This document shows, one piece after another, positions 18,240-30,146 of a stretch of 30,395 bases of DNA. The position numbers and the translations under genes are program-made. The notes below the pieces were generated by a model that was given only the letters and a program-made list of their open reading frames with translations, was not told the origin of the DNA and ran no database searches. Every line of letters begins with the position of its first letter. Position 1 is the first letter of the stretch. The DNA comes from a virus: IMG/VR virus record IMGVR_UViG_3300017751_000129, positions 1 through 30,395 of that record. One strand, written 5' to 3'.

Positions 18240-19270
18240 TTTAATTCCTCCAACATTTTGTCGAGTGCATCATCTGTAAGCGACCAAAATTCACACGCAT
18301 CAACATGTGAACACCAATGGCATTTCATCTTCCCACTGTCACGCAATTCTTCAAGGGGCATACCCTTTGGTGGCTTACCCAACCACGGGTCTGTAGGGAA
18401 GTCCATTTCAATATGGGCTTTGATGAGTTTCTTAATTTTGTTTTCTACAGTGGTTTCAATTCTCTTTGCCGCTGTAGTAGGCTCGTAGTGTATGGTCGGT
18501 CCCTCACCGTCTTTGATGCCCCCACCCGGAAACTCCCATCCCCAATGGGTGATAGGAAGGAACTCAGCGTGTGGGCTGTGCTCAAGCATCATCTTGTAAA
18601 ATTGCATCTCAGCACGCATGGAAGGTACTTTACCTCGCTTCTTGTACTTACCAGTCTTCAATTCCATAAGAGCATAGCCTTCACCATCTCGAAACAAGGA
18701 GTCGATGAACCCTCTCATGTGGATAGGGATTGCTTCACCATCTACCTCAACGAACCGGGTAGCGTGAATGTTAGCCTCGACCCCTGCGGGTCGCCACTCA
18801 TCCCCACCAGTATATTCTAATCGGCGTAACTGCCATTCTAACCACTGATGGATTTGCTCTTCCTCACCGTACATGTACGGCGAAGGTGGTTGTGGTACTG
18901 CGTCAAAAAATAATTGTCGAGCCTCATCCATCTTTCCTTTCACCAGTAAATGAATTGCTTGCTGTTCTTGTTCTTCTGTGAAGTTGTTCCAAAACCATTC
19001 GACCATATCGTGTACATTCTTACCTCGGATGTGGTCGGCATTCTCTTCACCTCTCAACCCATCAAACTTTTCATGGAAGTATTGCCTTCTGCACCAACCG
19101 AAGGTACCGAGGCTTGACTTGGTGAGTCGCAAGATTTTGTCGGGTGTGGTGATTGGATTCCAATTGTACACACTTCGTCTGTATGACTCCACTTCTTTCT
19201 CGTTGCCTGTAGCATCGAGGTAGTCCTGTATTTCGGGACGGACTTCGGGACCGTTGACAAGGAACCTCAT
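18236..19270 (-). CDS. PD-(D/E)XK nuclease of the Cas4/RecB type with Fe-S cysteines
   Basis: A 344-residue nuclease. Near the N-terminus SSLGTFGWCRRQYF supplies a first cysteine (C60). GKNVHD (H87), MRGFIDSLF (D190), LMELKTGK (E203, K205) and EMQFYKMML (Gln and Tyr near 223-225) form the catalytic core. KCHWCSHVDACEF near the C-terminus supplies C317, C320 and C326. One early and three late cysteines around a RecB-like core is the arrangement that binds a 4Fe-4S cluster in Cas4 and AddB. Such enzymes resect or trim DNA ends. GGAGGTGG lies 4 nt before the ATG, which overlaps the MazG-like stop. No CRISPR array or cas1 is present, so a replication or recombination role is more likely than spacer acquisition. 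Confidence 0.87.
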   Translation of the reverse strand: MRFLVNGPEVRPEIQDYLDATGNEKEVESYRRSVYNWNPITTPDKILRLTKSSLGTFGWCRRQYFHEKFDGLRGEENADHIRGKNVHDMVEWFWNNFTEEQEQQAIHLLVKGKMDEARQLFFDAVPQPPSPYMYGEEEQIHQWLEWQLRRLEYTGGDEWRPAGVEANIHATRFVEVDGEAIPIHMRGFIDSLFRDGEGYALMELKTGKYKKRGKVPSMRAEMQFYKMMLEHSPHAEFLPITHWGWEFPGGGIKDGEGPTIHYEPTTAAKRIETTVENKIKKLIKAHIEMDFPTDPWLGKPPKGMPLEELRDSGKMKCHWCSHVDACEFWSLTDDALDKMLEELK

Positions 19271-19455
19271 TCTTCCACCTCCATCTCAATCAACTTCTGT
19301 AAGTACACGGCTAAGTCCATCGCTTCTTCTTGTGCGTGGATAAGCCATTCAAGGCGGGAGAGTGGTGCGGTTTCCATAGTGACCCCGTACTTGTTCTTGC
19401 CTACTTCTGCTCGCTGTGCAATCTTCTTGCATACTTCGTCTTCGATTCTGCTCAT
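19267..19455 (-). CDS. Short MazG-like (all-alpha NTP pyrophosphatase fold) protein
   Basis: A 62-residue helical protein: IEDEVCKKIAQRAEVGKNKYG, then LSRLEWLIHAQEEAMDLAVYLQKLI. The last part carries the E-E-x2-D motif (E43, E44, D47) of MazG-like enzymes, and short proteins with this whole pattern are common in marine phages. MazG enzymes hydrolyse nucleoside triphosphates or related nucleotides. It is shorter than catalytic MazG domains (about 100 residues), so it may need oligomerisation or may only bind. GGTGA lies 6 nt before the start, which overlaps the upstream stop (ATGA). Confidence 0.75.
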   Translation of the reverse strand: MSRIEDEVCKKIAQRAEVGKNKYGVTMETAPLSRLEWLIHAQEEAMDLAVYLQKLIEMEVEE

Positions 19456-19574
19456 TCTTCTTCACCTGTAATTTCCTTAATGATTCGTTCTGCTTCGCAT
19501 AACTTACAGTGACGACTACTTTCAAATTCGGGCCTGTGTATCATTGGTTTCACGCACTTCATTTTTTCTACCAT
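19452..19574 (-). CDS. Tiny Cys-containing protein (40 residues)
   Basis: This frame begins one base after the stop of the GHKL-nuclease gene, with GGGGA 7 nt upstream, and ends in an ATGA overlap with the MazG-like start. The peptide has KCVKPMIHRPEF and HCKLCEAERIIKEITGEEE, so a Cys, two His and a CxxC could bind zinc. The perfect fit between neighbours, with junctions of the kind used across the operon, argues that it is a true gene. Function unknown. Confidence 0.6.
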   Translation of the reverse strand: MVEKMKCVKPMIHRPEFESSRHCKLCEAERIIKEITGEEE

Positions 19575-19575
19575 T

Positions 19576-21027
19576 TCAATTCCCCACATCAACATATGTT
19601 GTTAGTACAGTTTTGTGTTGTGCGCTTGACTCTTCCCAATACTGTATGTTGAAATCTTTAAGCAAAGGCTTCCAATGTTCATCAAATTGTTTCTTAGCGT
19701 TAGCCAATACATTCTTTGCAAAGACCACGCCATGAGTAGCACCCACCGTTACCATGTAGCCCACGAGTTGATTCATGTCTTGAGCATTGAAGTTTCCTTT
19801 CTTAACCTCAAACACATAGAAGGCATCGCCACTGTTAGCGGTCACATCCATGCTAAGGTTGGTATCAGTGGATTCTTCTGTCTTAACATCGTTCCAAATT
19901 GCATCACCGTTTGGTAGCACTTGAGCCTTGAGATAATCTGCGAGTCCATCACGAATAAGTGATTCACTAAGACTGTCGTAATCATCATCGTTTTCGGGTG
20001 GGTTGAAGAAAGATGTGATTTTGGCTTCCTTAATTGCTTCGGAAATTACCTTCTTCATCTCATACCATTCATCTGTTTGCTGTATGTTATCTTTCTTTGG
20101 AGTTGTAGCCAAGTGCCCCTCCTTCACTACCAGTTGCCCGACAAGTCCGTTAAGTGAGGTGTGATTTTTCGCTCTCCATACTGTCAATGGTTCATACACT
20201 CGGTGCATGATTACTCGGTCGTTTTGTACCACATCAATACCACCACCATAACTATGCCTCGCCCATACACCTTCATGTTCTTCGGGACTCATCCCGATAG
20301 TAAGTTCAGCAACAATGTTTTGAGTTGTTATTTCTGTTTTAAGAAGGTGTACATTTGTAAGTGTTGTAGGGTGGAAGTATGGAGGAAAAATAGCCTTCAC
20401 TGTTACCGTTGTAGGATTCCCTTTTGCATCTTGAATAACTTGCCCATCTTTCATATCTACTTCGTTAATCACAATACTACCACCTTGATTGATGAAGTTA
20501 GCATAACGAATGCCCAAAGAATCTCGTAGGTTATTGACCCGCTTAACTGCAAACACATTCAGTAACACATTCATCACGATTTTTGTTCCAGTGGTAGTAG
20601 GGATAGGTAACCCGTCATCAATGTGAAGGTCATTACCTTCATATCCGCTTATCGCATACGAGTCCACCCCGTCATACGAGCGTATAATGTCAAGTCCTTG
20701 TGAAATATCTGTATCACCAAAGTATGCAATAGCACTTTTCATACCTACACCATGTTCATGTATGCCTTTATTGGTTCTTGCACCAACACTCAAAGCAACA
20801 GCCGCTTCGGAGAGTGAAATACCGTCACCGTCATCCACAACAGATATTTTCTTAATGTTTCTTTGTCCATGATTTTCAACCAATAAATTGATTGAAATGT
20901 TCTTGGCTGTCACGATGGCGTTGTCCACCAGTTCGTGTAATGCCGAAGTGAATGTAAATCCACTCTTGGACATTGTGTTTGCCATCAGTTCGTTGTTACT
21001 TTCCATTTTTATTATCTTCTTTACCAT
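19576..21027 (-). CDS. GHKL (Hsp90/MORC-like) ATPase fused to a PD-(D/E)XK-like domain
   Basis: A 483-residue protein. Residues 1-160 form a Bergerat ATP-binding fold: N-box ALHELVDNA (E32, D35, N36), G1 VVDDGDGIS (D65, G67, G69), G2 HGVGMKSA (91-99) and TTGTKI (145-150). Residues 200-315 look like the second (S5-like) domain, with a candidate Lys in TTPKKDNIQ. Residues 395-440 hold GDAFYVFEVKKGNFNAQDMNQLVGYM, read as the E-x-K core (E407, K409) of a nuclease, with a following Gln and Tyr. GHKL-nuclease pairings are known in prokaryotic relatives of MORC linked to restriction systems. The ATG at 21027 has GGTGAT 3 nt upstream; an ORF start at 21072 would overlap the polymerase. It may sense, clamp and cut DNA. 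Confidence 0.8.
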   Translation of the reverse strand: MVKKIIKMESNNELMANTMSKSGFTFTSALHELVDNAIVTAKNISINLLVENHGQRNIKKISVVDDGDGISLSEAAVALSVGARTNKGIHEHGVGMKSAIAYFGDTDISQGLDIIRSYDGVDSYAISGYEGNDLHIDDGLPIPTTTGTKIVMNVLLNVFAVKRVNNLRDSLGIRYANFINQGGSIVINEVDMKDGQVIQDAKGNPTTVTVKAIFPPYFHPTTLTNVHLLKTEITTQNIVAELTIGMSPEEHEGVWARHSYGGGIDVVQNDRVIMHRVYEPLTVWRAKNHTSLNGLVGQLVVKEGHLATTPKKDNIQQTDEWYEMKKVISEAIKEAKITSFFNPPENDDDYDSLSESLIRDGLADYLKAQVLPNGDAIWNDVKTEESTDTNLSMDVTANSGDAFYVFEVKKGNFNAQDMNQLVGYMVTVGATHGVVFAKNVLANAKKQFDEHWKPLLKDFNIQYWEESSAQHKTVLTTYVDVGN

Positions 21028-21031
21028 TGTA

Positions 21032-23428
21032 TCACCATAATTTTCTTGGCACCCGTCGTGCCGTGAGTCCATCTAAATCCCATTCAAGTGCGTCGTACAC
21101 TGATTTTAATTTACGATGAATCCATCTGTCAACAGTTGTTGTCCAATCTACTCCGTAGCCTTGCAACTGTTCTTCATGCTCAAAGGCTACCACATTACAG
21201 TAGGGTTGACCTTCCGGTACCTCATCGACAAACACCCATTGTGCACTGTCGCTTTTCCTGTACTGTGTGCCTATGTATTCGTTTGAATACTTTGCCGCTT
21301 TGATAGCGTTAGGAGTGTGACTTGGATGGTAGTCTTCGATGTTCTTCTTGATACCACCATAGGAGGATGCTTCTGTGACCGAGAGTTCACCGTTGTATGC
21401 TGAACGGATGAGTGGTCGTACCTCATTGAAAATATCTTCCTCCGACTTTCCAGTGGAAATCAAGGTGAATACTTTACCCAGTATTTCTTTTGTCATCACA
21501 GGTGCGCTCGATGCTTTGATAGAGAAACCTGTAACTTTCATCTTCCCTGCTTCGTTAGGAGGGAAAGACTTCACACCGAAGTTCATGTTCTTCACCTTCG
21601 CTGTAAACCAGTATGGGAAGAAAGCCTCAAGTTCTACATCGAGGTACTTGAGATTCATTTCTTCTTGAGCGATGCGAGTTAATTCATTCGCCACCACTTC
21701 TGCTTCATCAAACGGTACTTGAATGTAACAAGAGTCAGTGTGTCCTGCAAGCCCACGGTACCCCATATCTTCACTCTTGTCAACCAGCATACTGATTGAC
21801 TCACGACCAAGATAGGTAATCGACTGAGCGATTTCATAACTGCTCCATTGCCCACGAATCTTCTTACTTCCGAGCATACCGTATATGGCGTTCACAGCAA
21901 CCTTCACAGCCATCTGTAGCATATCATATCCCAACTGTTCGTCCGGGTCTGTAGCGGCCTTCATAAGACCCTTGTAGTGCTTACGAAGTGCAAGCATATC
22001 TTTGACCACCTTCGGAAGAATGCCTTCCTTGTCCTGTAGCCAATGGAATGTACCACCTGTACCGGGGATGTATGAACCATCATCATCCATCTTCGGTGGA
22101 ATGTTGAGTGTGAGAGTGTTGGGTCCGGGCTTGTCAGTGAGTGTAGTGTGGCATAGGTTAGCCGAGAGAATGATGTTTGGGTATAGCGAAGCAAAGTCAA
22201 CCAGTGCAACATTCTCATGTCGCCCCGGTACGGTGTTCATCACCCACGCCGCTTGTAGTGGTGCCCTTTCCTCTACCCAAGAAGTAGGTGCTTTCATGTT
22301 TGTTTTACGACCAATTAAACCACGGAAGTATCGACTCACATTGTGTGTACTACCGAACTGTACACCAGCGACCTGTTGTAGTGCAAGGTGGAAATCAGTA
22401 CAGTGTAACTTCTCATCAATATCACGAAGGAGAGTTGTATCGACTAAACAGTAATCAACGAAGTCATCGTAGTATTCTTTCCAACCATTGAAGACTGTCA
22501 TACCCTCAATGTCATCGGTGAGTTTGTGACCAAGCCCAAGTTCAGTAGCGAACCAATTCAACTTTCGTTGCTGTGCCTTACCACGACCACTCTTCTGCCA
22601 CACACCTTCAAACCCACTTCCTTCTTCTGCCATAGCCGCTGTGTCAAAGACAAGCCGACCTTTGATTGGTTGTGCTGTGGTCTTGTATCCCGAACCGTCT
22701 TTCTTAGGTGGAAGGAAGATACCAAGAGGCGACATATCATGTCGCAGTGCACCAAGCCTTGTGTGTAGTTTAGGTAAGTCAGCCCAACCACCAGCGTGAG
22801 CGATGAGCATGTCGGGGTCACACTCTCTCAAGTGTTCCAAGAATCCTGTAAGCATTGCATCTTCGTTTGGATAAGTACGGAGTTCGTACCCATCATATCT
22901 ATCAATCCACTCAGTCTTTGTAATCGTATCACGAATGGAAACCTCACTCCATGCGAACACAACATTGTGTTCAGCGTGTGAGTCTGCTACAGCCATGACA
23001 GTGATTTCACCATCACCTGTAGTCTGCCATTCTAAATCGTAATACCATTTACGGGGATGGAACTCCGGTATCTTGTCCGGGTAGTTCGTGAGAAGAATTT
23101 GGTCAAGGTAATTCAAATCAGCCTCACAAGTCCACTTGCCTACAGCATCTTTAATTTCCCATAAAACATTTGGATGATTGACTTCTACCTTCCACAACTT
23201 ACCCCCGTTGAGTGAAACTGAAACCTCTTCGGTAACACGGGCGTGCATGTTCTTTAGTCGCCTTAATACAAACGAAGGTGCTTCTTGTCTTAACCAACAA
23301 AAGGGATATACAAAGTCATCATCTTCGTGTGAGATGTAACGCTCTTTCAGTACACCATCGGCTCCACGAGTACGCACATATATTGTGGGTGGGTCGTAGG
23401 GGTCATCCGAGGTGTATTCGATAATCAT
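21032..23428 (-). CDS. Family B DNA polymerase with 3'-5' exonuclease domain
   Basis: A 798-residue replicative polymerase. Exonuclease motifs: YYDLEW (D131, E133), a divergent ExoII AHAGGWADLPKL (D217, lacking the usual Asn) and ExoIII YCLVDTTLL (D330). Polymerase motifs: A VDFASLYPNII (D411), B KVAVNAIYGMLGSKK (Lys near 509) and C GLAGHTDSCYI (D565). In motif C the usual DTDS is HTDS; the second Asp, which binds metal, is kept. The protein ends in a helical thumb region. The ATG at 23428 shares one base with the clamp stop (TGATG); a TTG one codon earlier is less likely. It sits between the clamp and the GHKL gene in the replication operon. The exonuclease may be weakened by the ExoII change. 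Confidence 0.96.
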   Translation of the reverse strand: MIIEYTSDDPYDPPTIYVRTRGADGVLKERYISHEDDDFVYPFCWLRQEAPSFVLRRLKNMHARVTEEVSVSLNGGKLWKVEVNHPNVLWEIKDAVGKWTCEADLNYLDQILLTNYPDKIPEFHPRKWYYDLEWQTTGDGEITVMAVADSHAEHNVVFAWSEVSIRDTITKTEWIDRYDGYELRTYPNEDAMLTGFLEHLRECDPDMLIAHAGGWADLPKLHTRLGALRHDMSPLGIFLPPKKDGSGYKTTAQPIKGRLVFDTAAMAEEGSGFEGVWQKSGRGKAQQRKLNWFATELGLGHKLTDDIEGMTVFNGWKEYYDDFVDYCLVDTTLLRDIDEKLHCTDFHLALQQVAGVQFGSTHNVSRYFRGLIGRKTNMKAPTSWVEERAPLQAAWVMNTVPGRHENVALVDFASLYPNIILSANLCHTTLTDKPGPNTLTLNIPPKMDDDGSYIPGTGGTFHWLQDKEGILPKVVKDMLALRKHYKGLMKAATDPDEQLGYDMLQMAVKVAVNAIYGMLGSKKIRGQWSSYEIAQSITYLGRESISMLVDKSEDMGYRGLAGHTDSCYIQVPFDEAEVVANELTRIAQEEMNLKYLDVELEAFFPYWFTAKVKNMNFGVKSFPPNEAGKMKVTGFSIKASSAPVMTKEILGKVFTLISTGKSEEDIFNEVRPLIRSAYNGELSVTEASSYGGIKKNIEDYHPSHTPNAIKAAKYSNEYIGTQYRKSDSAQWVFVDEVPEGQPYCNVVAFEHEEQLQGYGVDWTTTVDRWIHRKLKSVYDALEWDLDGLTARRVPRKLW

Positions 23429-24180
23429 CAAACATCACTCTCGTTTACAATCATCAGTAAAGTATTCTGTTGTTCAAAGATGACAAGTGTTTCATCACCC
23501 ATGTGTACACGAGCCTTGCCTATGTCGAGGTACTGCAAGCATACAGGGAGCCAGTCACCAAAGTGGGTCGAGATAGTAGCACTCGGCCCATCGTTGTCCA
23601 TGAACGGTAGTGTCGTGAAGAGTCTGCCCGTAGCCGCTTTACCAGCCACGATACCAAACTCACCTTCACCACAATGCGCTCGTAACTTGAACTGTGAATC
23701 TTTAGCAAGGACACCTTTCATACCTGCGAGGGAAATCAAATCTGTTGTCATCACATCACCATGCACATTCAACTCATCACCTGCGAATGAAGACCATCCA
23801 CTTGATGATGAGTTCTCAAGTAACTTGCGTACCACCACTGTCTTTGCCGCTGAAAGAATATCATCAGTGCTTGGAAGTTGTAACTTGTTTCCACCTGCTT
23901 CGATGTGCAATGGTTTAGTTTCAGCCGCCTGTCTAAGACTCACCTTGTCTTGCTTGCTTGCTTTGAGATAAGCAATAGCCTTCTCAAGCAAAGCGATGTG
24001 AATGAATCCTTCTTCGTCCACTGTAGCACCTGTCATTTGCTTACGCAGGTAGTAGTTGGCAAACCCTACCTCGATGGTAAGTCGGTTACCACTACAACTC
24101 ATACGAGCATCGGTGACACCCTTACCAAAAGATGTAAGGAAGGTCAACAAGTCTTTTCTTTCAACAGTTATCTTTGTCAT
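23428..24180 (-). CDS. Sliding clamp, PCNA-like
   Basis: A 250-residue protein, the usual length of archaeal PCNA (about 245-260). It has the alternating short strands expected of a clamp, including RLTIEVGFANYYLRKQM near 33-48, and ends in strands resembling the clamp C-terminus (ETLVIFEQQNTLLMIV). Motif conservation is weak, so the call leans on length, overall pattern and position between a clamp-loader-bearing operon and the polymerase. It would form a ring that tethers the polymerase and is loaded by RFC. GAGGTGAT lies 3 nt upstream of the ATG, and the start overlaps the stop of a tiny membrane-protein gene. A divergent processivity factor is the alternative. Confidence 0.7.
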   Translation of the reverse strand: MTKITVERKDLLTFLTSFGKGVTDARMSCSGNRLTIEVGFANYYLRKQMTGATVDEEGFIHIALLEKAIAYLKASKQDKVSLRQAAETKPLHIEAGGNKLQLPSTDDILSAAKTVVVRKLLENSSSSGWSSFAGDELNVHGDVMTTDLISLAGMKGVLAKDSQFKLRAHCGEGEFGIVAGKAATGRLFTTLPFMDNDGPSATISTHFGDWLPVCLQYLDIGKARVHMGDETLVIFEQQNTLLMIVNESDV

Positions 24181-27777: not shown

Positions 27778-28218
27778 TCATAGTGAATCACAGAATGAGT
27801 CCCACGCCTCAACCCAGTACATGAACTTCTTCCAGTTCTTTCCTATCTTCTTACTGCGCCGTGTGCGTGTACCATCCTCGTTGTCTTTGTAGTTGACTTT
27901 GGGTATAGGGTTAGCACGCATCCACAATATCTTCTTGATGTTCTTTACATCCTGCACACACATCAATGATTGAAACGGTTCCAACTCATCAATGAAGCGC
28001 ATCATCTTGTCACCATATATCCTCTTAGTTTCCATTACGGAGAGTCCTTTGGAGTTAGCCCACACTTCGATGCACTTCTTCTGCTCTTCCGTACAGGACT
28101 TCTTGATGCAAATATACGATTCAACTTTGATTCCGTATGAGTATGGTGAGCGATGAGTGGAAACGACATACTTGATTTTCATCAATGCCATGCCCAAACC
28201 TATGTTTTCAAGATTCAT
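27778..28218 (-). CDS. Unknown basic protein
   Basis: A 146-residue protein from the ATG at 28218, with GGTGGTG 3 nt upstream. The frame is open to 28392, but that extension lies inside the upstream gene and reads like a shadow (ISNSLKWKTRW, TIYSTTTLLLVV). The protein is Lys-rich, with five cysteines, and has GTRTRRSKKIGKNWKKFMYW near its C-terminus, which may bind nucleic acid. I recognise no family. It is the last gene before promoter B. Confidence 0.6.
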   Translation of the reverse strand: MNLENIGLGMALMKIKYVVSTHRSPYSYGIKVESYICIKKSCTEEQKKCIEVWANSKGLSVMETKRIYGDKMMRFIDELEPFQSLMCVQDVKNIKKILWMRANPIPKVNYKDNEDGTRTRRSKKIGKNWKKFMYWVEAWDSFCDSL

Positions 28219-29419
28219 CTTCACCACCAGTAATAGCGTAGTAGTCGAGTATATCGTCAACGCTATCGACACCCATCGTGTCTTCCACTTCAATGAATTT
28301 GAGATGCCAACCGTCATCCGGCGACCATGTGTAATTGAACTTACCAACCAAACACTCATCCACATTGTGGAAGGTATGTCGTATGTTTGCATTCACACCA
28401 CGACGCTTCAATGCGTTGTCAAGTGAGAATGGTAGTGTGTCTATTGTGAGCGTAGTCGTATCCACAACTTCACCAGCATCGCTAAAACCGATAACAATTT
28501 CATAACCTCCTTTGTTTAAATTTTGTATGGTAAGTATCTGTGAGTACAATGTATTCGTCCCGTTGGACTTTAGGTAGTAGTTTGTTTTATGGTGAATTAA
28601 AAAACCACCCTTCGCATATGAATCAAGCAAGACCTGTGACTCGTGCCACTCATGGTTCATCGCCTGTTTCGGTTTAGAGAAAGGAAGGGGGGTGTTGTAT
28701 GAATGCCAGTGGCTTGTACCCGTAGGGTTCTCCCACATCCAACACACAGCGTTGCTATCAAGCATTGGTGTGAAGGTAGTGTTCAGTGTACCGTTTCGAT
28801 TTCGGACTATCCCGTCACCCACATACTTCAAGGTAGCACAGTCAGTAACGAACCACCACTCTTCCGGTACCTCTTCACCGTCCCACGATTCAAGTTTCTT
28901 GAAGGGGGTGTGATGTTCTTTCACTTCAAGCCCATCATAAATTACCGAAAGATGTATATCAAAAGAATGACCAGCGTTTAAATTACTGTGCTTGTATAAC
29001 CAGTTCTTGAATCGGTTTCGTTTAGAATACCAACGGTAGTCCAACGCCCACCTCCATATCAGTGCGGCTTCTTTCACGCTGATGCTGTTGGCAAAAGAAA
29101 GCACCCATTCGTCATTCGTGTGTGCGTTCCTCATTAGGTCCACCACTTCCTTAAGTGTGAATGTGCTTGGTACATCCCCCGATTCCCATGTTAAGATTTC
29201 CACAAACGGTCTATCATTTGCAACCTCTAAGATGCGCTCAAGCATCACGCCGCACTCTTTTGCAAGTTGCGTTTTCAATCTATGCAAGGACACTGAAAGC
29301 CTATTCGTAGTATGTACAAAGTCCCAAATCTCACGACATTCTTTTTTCGTGATTTCTTTCACCAGTAATTTATTTGGCATTCGGTTGATGAGTTCGGCCA
29401 ACCTCGCCAAAGTAAGCAT
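28208..29419 (-). CDS. Unknown protein, possibly a degenerate ATP-dependent DNA ligase homologue
   Basis: A 403-residue protein from the ATG at 29419; a GTG at 29437 inside the upstream gene lacks an RBS. Residues 1-140 are helical and recall the DNA-binding domain of ATP-dependent ligases (ALIWRWALDYRWYSKRNRF near 119-137). A later stretch, TLKYVGDGIVRNRNG near 195-210, recalls ligase motif I (KxDG) but has two extra residues. The C-terminal part (ECLVGKFNYT, then WHLKFIEVEDTMGVDSVDDI) recalls the ligase OB domain. None of these is exact, and other motifs are unclear. If related, it has probably lost adenylation. Unknown function is the safe reading; position next to replication genes is suggestive. 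Confidence 0.5.
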   Translation of the reverse strand: MLTLARLAELINRMPNKLLVKEITKKECREIWDFVHTTNRLSVSLHRLKTQLAKECGVMLERILEVANDRPFVEILTWESGDVPSTFTLKEVVDLMRNAHTNDEWVLSFANSISVKEAALIWRWALDYRWYSKRNRFKNWLYKHSNLNAGHSFDIHLSVIYDGLEVKEHHTPFKKLESWDGEEVPEEWWFVTDCATLKYVGDGIVRNRNGTLNTTFTPMLDSNAVCWMWENPTGTSHWHSYNTPLPFSKPKQAMNHEWHESQVLLDSYAKGGFLIHHKTNYYLKSNGTNTLYSQILTIQNLNKGGYEIVIGFSDAGEVVDTTTLTIDTLPFSLDNALKRRGVNANIRHTFHNVDECLVGKFNYTWSPDDGWHLKFIEVEDTMGVDSVDDILDYYAITGGEDES

Positions 29420-29423
29420 GTAC

Positions 29424-30146
29424 TCACTCTTCTTCACTGGTTGGTAAGTTCGTCTTTATCGAAGTGATGCCCCACATCCAAGGAGGCACTCTTTCTCCGT
29501 TACGCTCTTTGCCGAGGATAACAAACATTCCACCTACACCTTCATCGAACGCACCGTTTTCTGCGTACTCAACAAGTTGTTCTCGTGTTTGTGCTGTGTA
29601 CTTATGGGTGGTTGATTTCCACTGCATGAAGATTTCGTCACCAGCAAGTAGGTGGAAATCATCGGGGTCAACATTTATGTCTAAGCCACAAGAGTTACAA
29701 CCGAGGATGATTCTCCACAAATCAATAGGCACAGTCTTTCCATTCGATGTTTCTGCATCTACTGTTTCGATGTACTCGGCCTTTGATTTCTCAAAGTCAT
29801 TGTTAGCAAGTGGGTATCCACATTCACAAGCCCATGTTTGTGCAAGTTCTTGTTTTGCTTGGAACTGCATTTCTGCTTGAGCATTAGGGTCGAGTGGTGG
29901 TGTGGCCATTTCCAAACCATCGGGTTCTTCCATTGTAAAACCACATGCCTCCATGAGAAGGGTAAACTTCTCGTGGTGGTCTTGGGCCATTGGATGGTTA
30001 AGCATGAAGATAAGGGCGAAATTTGTTTCGGTCATCTTCCTATACTGCACACCACTATCGTCGGGTGCCCATACACCGTCAATCGGTATCTTAGCAAAGT
30101 GTTCGTTTCCCCATTCAATCAAATCATTCGTCGGTTGCCATTCCAT
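29424..30146 (-). CDS. Unknown zinc-ribbon protein
   Basis: A 240-residue acidic protein. I choose the ATG at 30146 because GGTGA lies 5 nt upstream; an ATG at 30158 is also possible. Residues about 105-155 carry two CxxC-type pairs (CECG and CNSCG) about 43 residues apart, likely one zinc ribbon with a long insertion. The N-terminal 70 residues are helical. The C-terminal part has GGMFVILGKERNGERVPPWM. I recognise no family. It overlaps the preceding gene and ends 4 nt before the next ATG. Confidence 0.6.
   Translation of the reverse strand: MEWQPTNDLIEWGNEHFAKIPIDGVWAPDDSGVQYRKMTETNFALIFMLNHPMAQDHHEKFTLLMEACGFTMEEPDGLEMATPPLDPNAQAEMQFQAKQELAQTWACECGYPLANNDFEKSKAEYIETVDAETSNGKTVPIDLWRIILGCNSCGLDINVDPDDFHLLAGDEIFMQWKSTTHKYTAQTREQLVEYAENGAFDEGVGGMFVILGKERNGERVPPWMWGITSIKTNLPTSEEE

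Follow-up and report, generated by a model that had tools for sequence, protein, structure and literature searches.

An optional single-gene cassette behind the DNA polymerase gene of a probable magrovirus-like virus encodes a predicted GHKL ATPase-nuclease

The analyzed window, i.e., the whole stretch of 30,395 nucleotides of the IMG/VR virus record IMGVR_UViG_3300017751_000129, carries an operon for RFC, PCNA, a family B DNA polymerase (PolB), a primase-like protein, an ERCC4 nuclease and a thermosome-like chaperonin. The labels PCNA and thermosome were read from the translations, in addition to a chaperonin PHROG match. Comparable operon genes were described for the magroviruses, tailed viruses of marine Poseidoniales archaea (PMC10768690, PMC12999244), and judged from its gene content the window virus is probably magrovirus-like. 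The nearest named PolB proteins belong to haloarchaeal tailed viruses and are 23-25% identical. Elsewhere in the window, two open reading frames on the same strand and in different frames (27778-28392 and 28208-29437) overlap by 185 bases. Both have viral relatives, and the arrangement possibly reflects a frameshift or a mis-called start.

The gene for the GHKL ATPase/PD-(D/E)XK nuclease (19576..21027, minus strand; 483 amino acids, stop codon included in the coordinates) follows immediately after the PolB gene (21032..23431, minus strand; Pfam DNA_pol_B, 6.3e-41), the upstream flank of the insertion site described below. The first-pass annotation had placed it directly after the polymerase, and this was confirmed in the window. 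The gene was delineated by its open reading frame, a conserved start, Pfam HATPase_c_3 and alignments. Its ATG at 21027 lies 4 bases past the PolB stop codon, with GGTGAT just 5' of it. This ribosome-binding-like site (21031..21036, minus strand) overlaps the PolB stop codon TGA (21034-21032). In the viral relatives the start equivalent to 21027 is kept, and a site of the GGTGA type again overlaps their PolB stop. A longer open reading frame of 498 amino acids, starting at an in-frame ATG at 21072 within the PolB gene, was rejected, as its frame is not kept in the relatives. The GGTGAT site also forms the left edge of the cassette, defined by comparison of the window with the relative L051, in which the site is empty; two other pairs of filled and empty sites are arranged alike. 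The right edge is given by the gene for a small Cys-containing protein (19452..19574, minus strand), annotated as an open reading frame of 19452-19595, for which the shorter start was deduced from L051.

The N-terminal part of the protein (residues about 1-190; 20458..21027, minus strand) is predicted to be a GHL-type ATPase resembling those of Topo VI-B, MORC and MutL. Complete Bergerat motifs had been claimed, and all those of the GHKL/GHL superfamily (E..DN, DxGxG, GxGxK) were indeed found, as E32xxDN36, D65DGDG69 and E91HGVGMK97. Pfam HATPase_c_3 passed its cut-off over residues about 25-103 with an E-value of 1.2e-8. Using a profile of the viral and four bacterial homologues against the PDB, Topo VI-B was matched with an E-value of 2.6e-8 (residues 25-192), followed by MORC3 (4.5e-4) and MutL/Mlh1 (5e-4). 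A PDB search with the single sequence had yielded FtsZ matches only, which were put down to chance. Throughout the viral relatives and the four bacterial homologues E32, D35, N36, D65, G69, G93, G95 and K97 are invariant. From the usual GHL architecture, residues about 191-320 (20068..20457, minus strand) may form an S5-like transducer region. Here R271, H289, N293 and K312 are invariant in the alignment including the bacterial homologues, and K312, found in a TxxK context (TTPKKD), is a candidate for the switch lysine. The structure model of the full-length protein reached a pLDDT of 46 and is weak over residues 213-321, i.e., in this middle region.

The C-terminal domain (residues about 354-465; 19633..19968, minus strand) is assigned to the PD-(D/E)XK nucleases by its modelled fold and its predicted D-ExK-QxxxY site, which consists of E355, D394, E407-x-K409 and Q420xxxY424. 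D394, E407, K409, Q420 and Y424 are invariant in the viral relatives (66-100% identity) and in the four bacterial homologues at 21-24% identity, while E355 was found in every viral relative and in the Priestia homologue. Modelled alone, the domain reached a pLDDT of 75 and a pTM of 0.71, and the order of its elements is that of the alpha-beta3-alpha-beta restriction-endonuclease core. The structural matches are EndoMS/NucS as the best (Z 9.7, rmsd 2.9, 101 residues), AF1548 (Z 9.6), EcoT38I (Z 8.6) and R.BspD6I (Z 8.5), and viral restriction endonucleases in BFVD. RPB5 was also among them; its N-terminal domain has the same fold as the restriction-endonuclease core. In the homologue profile the C-terminus gave a weak Cas4 match in the PDB (0.12), and several members showed weak Cas4/RecB-type matches in this region. 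Thus, a domain without restriction-endonuclease fold or a loss of E407 and K409, either of which would have spoken against the first-pass annotation, was not observed; E32, D65, E407 and K409, the residues named there, are all invariant among the viral relatives and the four bacterial homologues.

Repeated scans of IMG/VR returned the same 13 viral loci each time, 65-100% identical. Full-length bacterial homologues with 21-24% identity were found on plasmids of Priestia megaterium and Lactiplantibacillus as well as in Psychrobacter and Ligilactobacillus. The catalytic residues of both domains are invariant across 21-100% identity. The Priestia megaterium protein WP_241097392.1 (tblastn E-value of 1e-13) and the Lactiplantibacillus plantarum protein WP_318629771.1 (7e-6) are homologous over nearly their full length, share 22-24% identity and the same catalytic residues with the viral protein, and are annotated merely as "ATP-binding protein". 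Neighbors of the Priestia gene are dcm, a gene for an SNF2-related protein (helicase), two restriction endonuclease genes and SbcCD-like genes, a neighborhood of the sort described for MORC-type proteins (PMC2292703). The proposed kinship with MORC-related GHKL proteins that are joined to restriction-endonuclease-fold domains in restriction-linked systems is supported by this homologue. The Psychrobacter homologue stands alone amid housekeeping genes. Neither the viral nor the Priestia protein had a homologue among GenBank phages; as the best PolB match in that collection is just 25% identical, close magroviruses are apparently absent from it. With regard to archaeal hosts, the genome scan returned three relatives, all of them bacterial, from collections which may lack the relevant archaeal genomes. 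In two phyla with 299 bacterial genomes each, one match each was obtained at an E-value of 1e-12 or below, one of them being the starting genome.

The ratio dN/dS was calculated for closer pairs, most others being left out due to saturated dS. For the whole gene it was 0.037 (window virus/L002) and 0.029 (L010/L011), and for the nuclease domain of these pairs 0.015-0.026. Values this low for the nuclease domain, together with 0.03-0.04 for the gene, indicate that both domains are functionally constrained, and on this basis the GHKL-nuclease architecture was considered to lie far beyond chance. Purifying selection on the gene is strong, and it is highly improbable that we are dealing with a chance fusion or a pseudogene which has no catalytic role and was retained for DNA binding or regulation: both the dN/dS values and the invariant catalytic residues in both domains argue against this, and no tool result speaks in its favor.

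From the relatives, 80 PolB loci were fetched, of which the 78 with a long PolB were counted. The GHKL-nuclease gene was present at 10 of these 78 loci; the numbers of carriers are inflated by near-identical contigs from separate samples, and most records are fragments. On the PolB tree, parsimony requires at least six gains or losses, whereby gain and loss are indistinguishable. The usual order in the relatives is PolB, small genes, MazG-like and Cas4-like, with the GHKL gene absent. A whole-record search of 41 records without the gene at this site revealed no full copy elsewhere. An apparent GHKL remnant in L082/L083 (14 bits) was dismissed on inspection as an unrelated short Cys-containing open reading frame. 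Three pairs of filled and empty sites were compared: the window virus and L051 (flanks 92-94% identical, PolB flank about 94%), L056 and L057 (97-99%), and L068 and L066 (about 96%). In all three the insert begins just past the PolB stop and ends just ahead of the following gene, without disrupting the operon. Neither a target duplication nor a recombinase was seen. The GHKL-nuclease gene is thus a single-gene cassette with precise insertion, gained or lost separately from its neighbors. The first-pass annotation had grouped it into one system with the small Cys-containing, MazG-like and Cas4-like proteins. This grouping did not hold, as the MazG-like and Cas4-like genes follow PolB in nearly all of the about 70 relatives without the GHKL gene, and in L051, which lacks it, the gene for the small Cys-containing protein directly follows PolB.

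This distribution also bears on the question whether the protein serves the DNA of the virus itself. The location within a viral replication operon was correct as to position, but membership in the core replication machinery was rejected in view of the presence at only 10 of 78 PolB loci; the gene does not occur throughout the clade with PolB, PCNA, RFC and primase, as a core module of the magroviruses would. A role in own-DNA service could be envisaged, in which a MutL-like ATPase with a built-in EndoMS/NucS-like nuclease would follow the viral polymerase and sliding clamp, nicking mismatches or trimming intermediates of recombination or of the fork. It is suggested by the adjoining PolB and PCNA genes, by the resemblance of the ATPase to MutL and Topo VI-B, and by the fold comparison of the nuclease, in which EndoMS/NucS, an archaeal mismatch endonuclease, ranked first. 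However, EcoT38I, AF1548 and R.BspD6I match nearly as well, the nearest sequence homologues lie on plasmids and in restriction contexts, and the gene is absent from most relatives whose replication genes are otherwise the same, near-identical ones included. Overall, we regard such a role as unlikely. For a function in resolving topological stress, which had also been proposed, no specific support was obtained.

The cassette has also moved between diverged viruses. L068 and L002 lie on one contig. In L068 the PolB and Cas4-like genes match those of the sister L066 at 97-98%. Compared with the window, the GHKL gene of L068 is 85% identical at the nucleotide level versus 61% for PolB and 62% for the Cas4-like gene, indicating transfer of the gene into the same slot. 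The MazG-like gene was exchanged too, independently of the GHKL gene: in L114, without the GHKL gene, it is 94% identical to that of the window, versus 63% for PolB. A two-gene cassette of GHKL and MazG-like genes, considered after both showed 94% identity in L002, was rejected, since L066 has an equally similar MazG-like gene and no GHKL gene. The MazG-like gene itself (62 amino acids, window 19267-19455) matched unannotated PHROGs only and no Pfam family.

The identical and precise insertion site in every carrier, the filled and empty alleles in near-identical viruses and the arrival of the gene at this site in a distant virus would fit a selfish mobile nuclease, which, in the manner of a free-standing homing endonuclease, would spread by cutting the PolB-MazG junction of co-infecting relatives whose site is empty. 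Nevertheless, the transfer into L068 left no co-conversion on the PolB side beyond a few bases, a protein of 483 amino acids with an ATP clamp differs from the known homing nucleases, and the bacterial homologues show no such site habit. Consequently, we consider homing of this kind improbable.

The interval between PolB and the Cas4-like gene is a hotspot, where other viruses encode a CoiA-like protein, a Rep-type HUH domain, an N6/N4 methylase, or an HNH nuclease along with a C5 DNA methylase. The HNH endonuclease and C5 DNA methylase genes lie downstream of the GHKL gene in L061:14849-16415 (same contigs as L005/L006/L007), and the N6/N4 DNA methylase gene (1.6e-35) is found in L102:8718-9479. 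The CoiA-like protein (Pfam CoiA_N, 8.8e-11) was observed in L052:13177-14103 and at L057:3198, one a carrier of the GHKL gene and the other a non-carrier. The 146-amino acid protein of L091:12667-13104 gave a match to the Rep domain known from CRESS-DNA viruses, an HUH endonuclease (Pfam Viral_Rep, 7.1e-17), which is unexpected for a tailed archaeal virus. In the L108-L111 clade a PCNA-like gene directly follows PolB at the hotspot position.

Among the GHKL carriers a C5 methylase was found in the L005/L006/L007 lineage only, so that an obligate C5-methylase partner was rejected, and no N6/N4 methylase was detected in the 9 carrier records tested, most of which are partial. A partner methyltransferase, as in a classical restriction-modification system, thus did not accompany the gene generally in a search for C5 and N6/N4 types in mostly partial records. 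These data touch on another possible task, the early degradation of the host chromosome for nucleotides and host silencing, with the viral DNA being spared by modification or structure. The position in the early operon and the lytic lifestyle of the magroviruses with their virus-encoded replisome (PMC10768690) are in agreement with it. On the other hand, scavenging of nucleotides is expected to be a steady need, yet the closest relatives lack the gene, and a viral DNA-modification gene was not recognized in most carriers, many of their records being partial. This alternative appears rather unlikely to us.

Our preferred reading, to which we give about an even chance, is that the protein acts as a DNA-clamp nuclease gated by ATP, which lytic magrovirus-like tailed viruses of archaea would possess as an optional cassette and use as a conflict weapon against competing DNA, presumably of superinfecting viruses and plasmids and possibly of the host chromosome. 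It is preferred since the gene is accessory, mobile and a single-gene unit with restriction-linked homologues, in a hotspot shared with methylases and nucleases. The invariant catalytic residues, the ATPase profile, the modelled nuclease fold and the precedents of VcSduA and paraMORC3 (see below) also count in its favor. Degradation of host DNA or exclusion of rival elements, both of which had been suggested from the sequence, remain the preferred class of explanation. The conflict reading is weakened by the lack of a recognized methylase in most carriers that would spare the genome of the virus, and by the consideration that a gene coexpressed with the replisome might just as well act for the benefit of the viral DNA. 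Mechanistically, two subunits would bind ATP and their GHKL domains would close as a clamp on DNA, as in MutL, MORC and Topo VI-B. Closure would license the C-terminal PD-(D/E)XK domains to cut, and hydrolysis of ATP would reopen the clamp. Being translated from the PolB stop codon, the protein would be made early, alongside the replisome. A more specific version, virus-virus exclusion, holds that, in mixed infections, the genomes of related viruses without the gene are cut by the carriers, and that the gene spreads among diverged archaeal viruses into a single slot after the polymerase, perhaps through cleavage of the empty slot; in this detailed form it is distinctly unlikely. GHKL-gated nucleases were recognized as bacterial anti-phage systems only recently. 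The presence of a clade of the same architecture in the replication operon of probable marine archaeal viruses, gained and lost at an exact position, suggests a use of this weapon by viruses as well. Near-identical viruses with filled and empty sites represent natural isogenic pairs, and with a single gene of 1.45 kb both ATP-gated cutting and exclusion are testable in common laboratory strains although the viruses are uncultured.

Various known systems resemble the viral protein in part. MutL, Topo VI-B and MORC have the GHL-type ATPase in common with it and differ in the C-terminal effector: MutL contains another nuclease fold, Topo VI-B works with a Spo11-like subunit A as partner, and MORC is without nuclease. 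EndoMS/NucS, AF1548, EcoT38I and R.BspD6I share the fold of the C-terminal domain (Z 8.5-9.7) at 6-18% identity and have no GHKL domain. The Priestia and Lactiplantibacillus proteins are homologous over nearly the full length; they come from bacterial plasmids, one of them from within a cluster of restriction genes. By anatomy, the closest known kinds are GHKL-Shedu and paraMORC3. VcSduA, a GHKL-Shedu (type I-D Shedu), likewise is a single-gene system with a GHKL ATPase followed by a PD-(D/E)XK nuclease, and its restriction of phages requires the active sites of both ATPase and nuclease, while the host is not killed (PMC12137116). We did not file the viral protein as Shedu. Membership was rejected at the sequence level: no Pfam match to SduA_C/DUF4263 was found in the protein or the window, hhalign against seven Shedu members gave probabilities of 0.1-0.2, and the spacing from ExK to Q is 13 residues in the viral protein, clearly longer in most aligned Shedu members. 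In PADLOC neither Shedu nor any other family passed for the protein. The paraMORC3 proteins combine an N-terminal GHKL ATPase and an S5-type middle with a C-terminal nuclease domain of restriction-endonuclease fold carrying E-D-ExK (PMC2292703). The viral protein has this architecture of GHKL, S5-type and C-terminal RecB-like nuclease parts, with the S5 part being a prediction, and is likened to paraMORC3 by this architecture. For prokaryotic MORC proper, a GhXhhpXXRhl motif of the S5 domain was described (PMC2292703). As here, paraMORC3 proteins are often standalone and laterally mobile, with relatives linked to restriction-modification (PMC2292703). They are known from bacterial and archaeal genomes, whereas the gene described here resides in viruses, is coupled in translation to the viral polymerase gene, and is gained or lost as one cassette.
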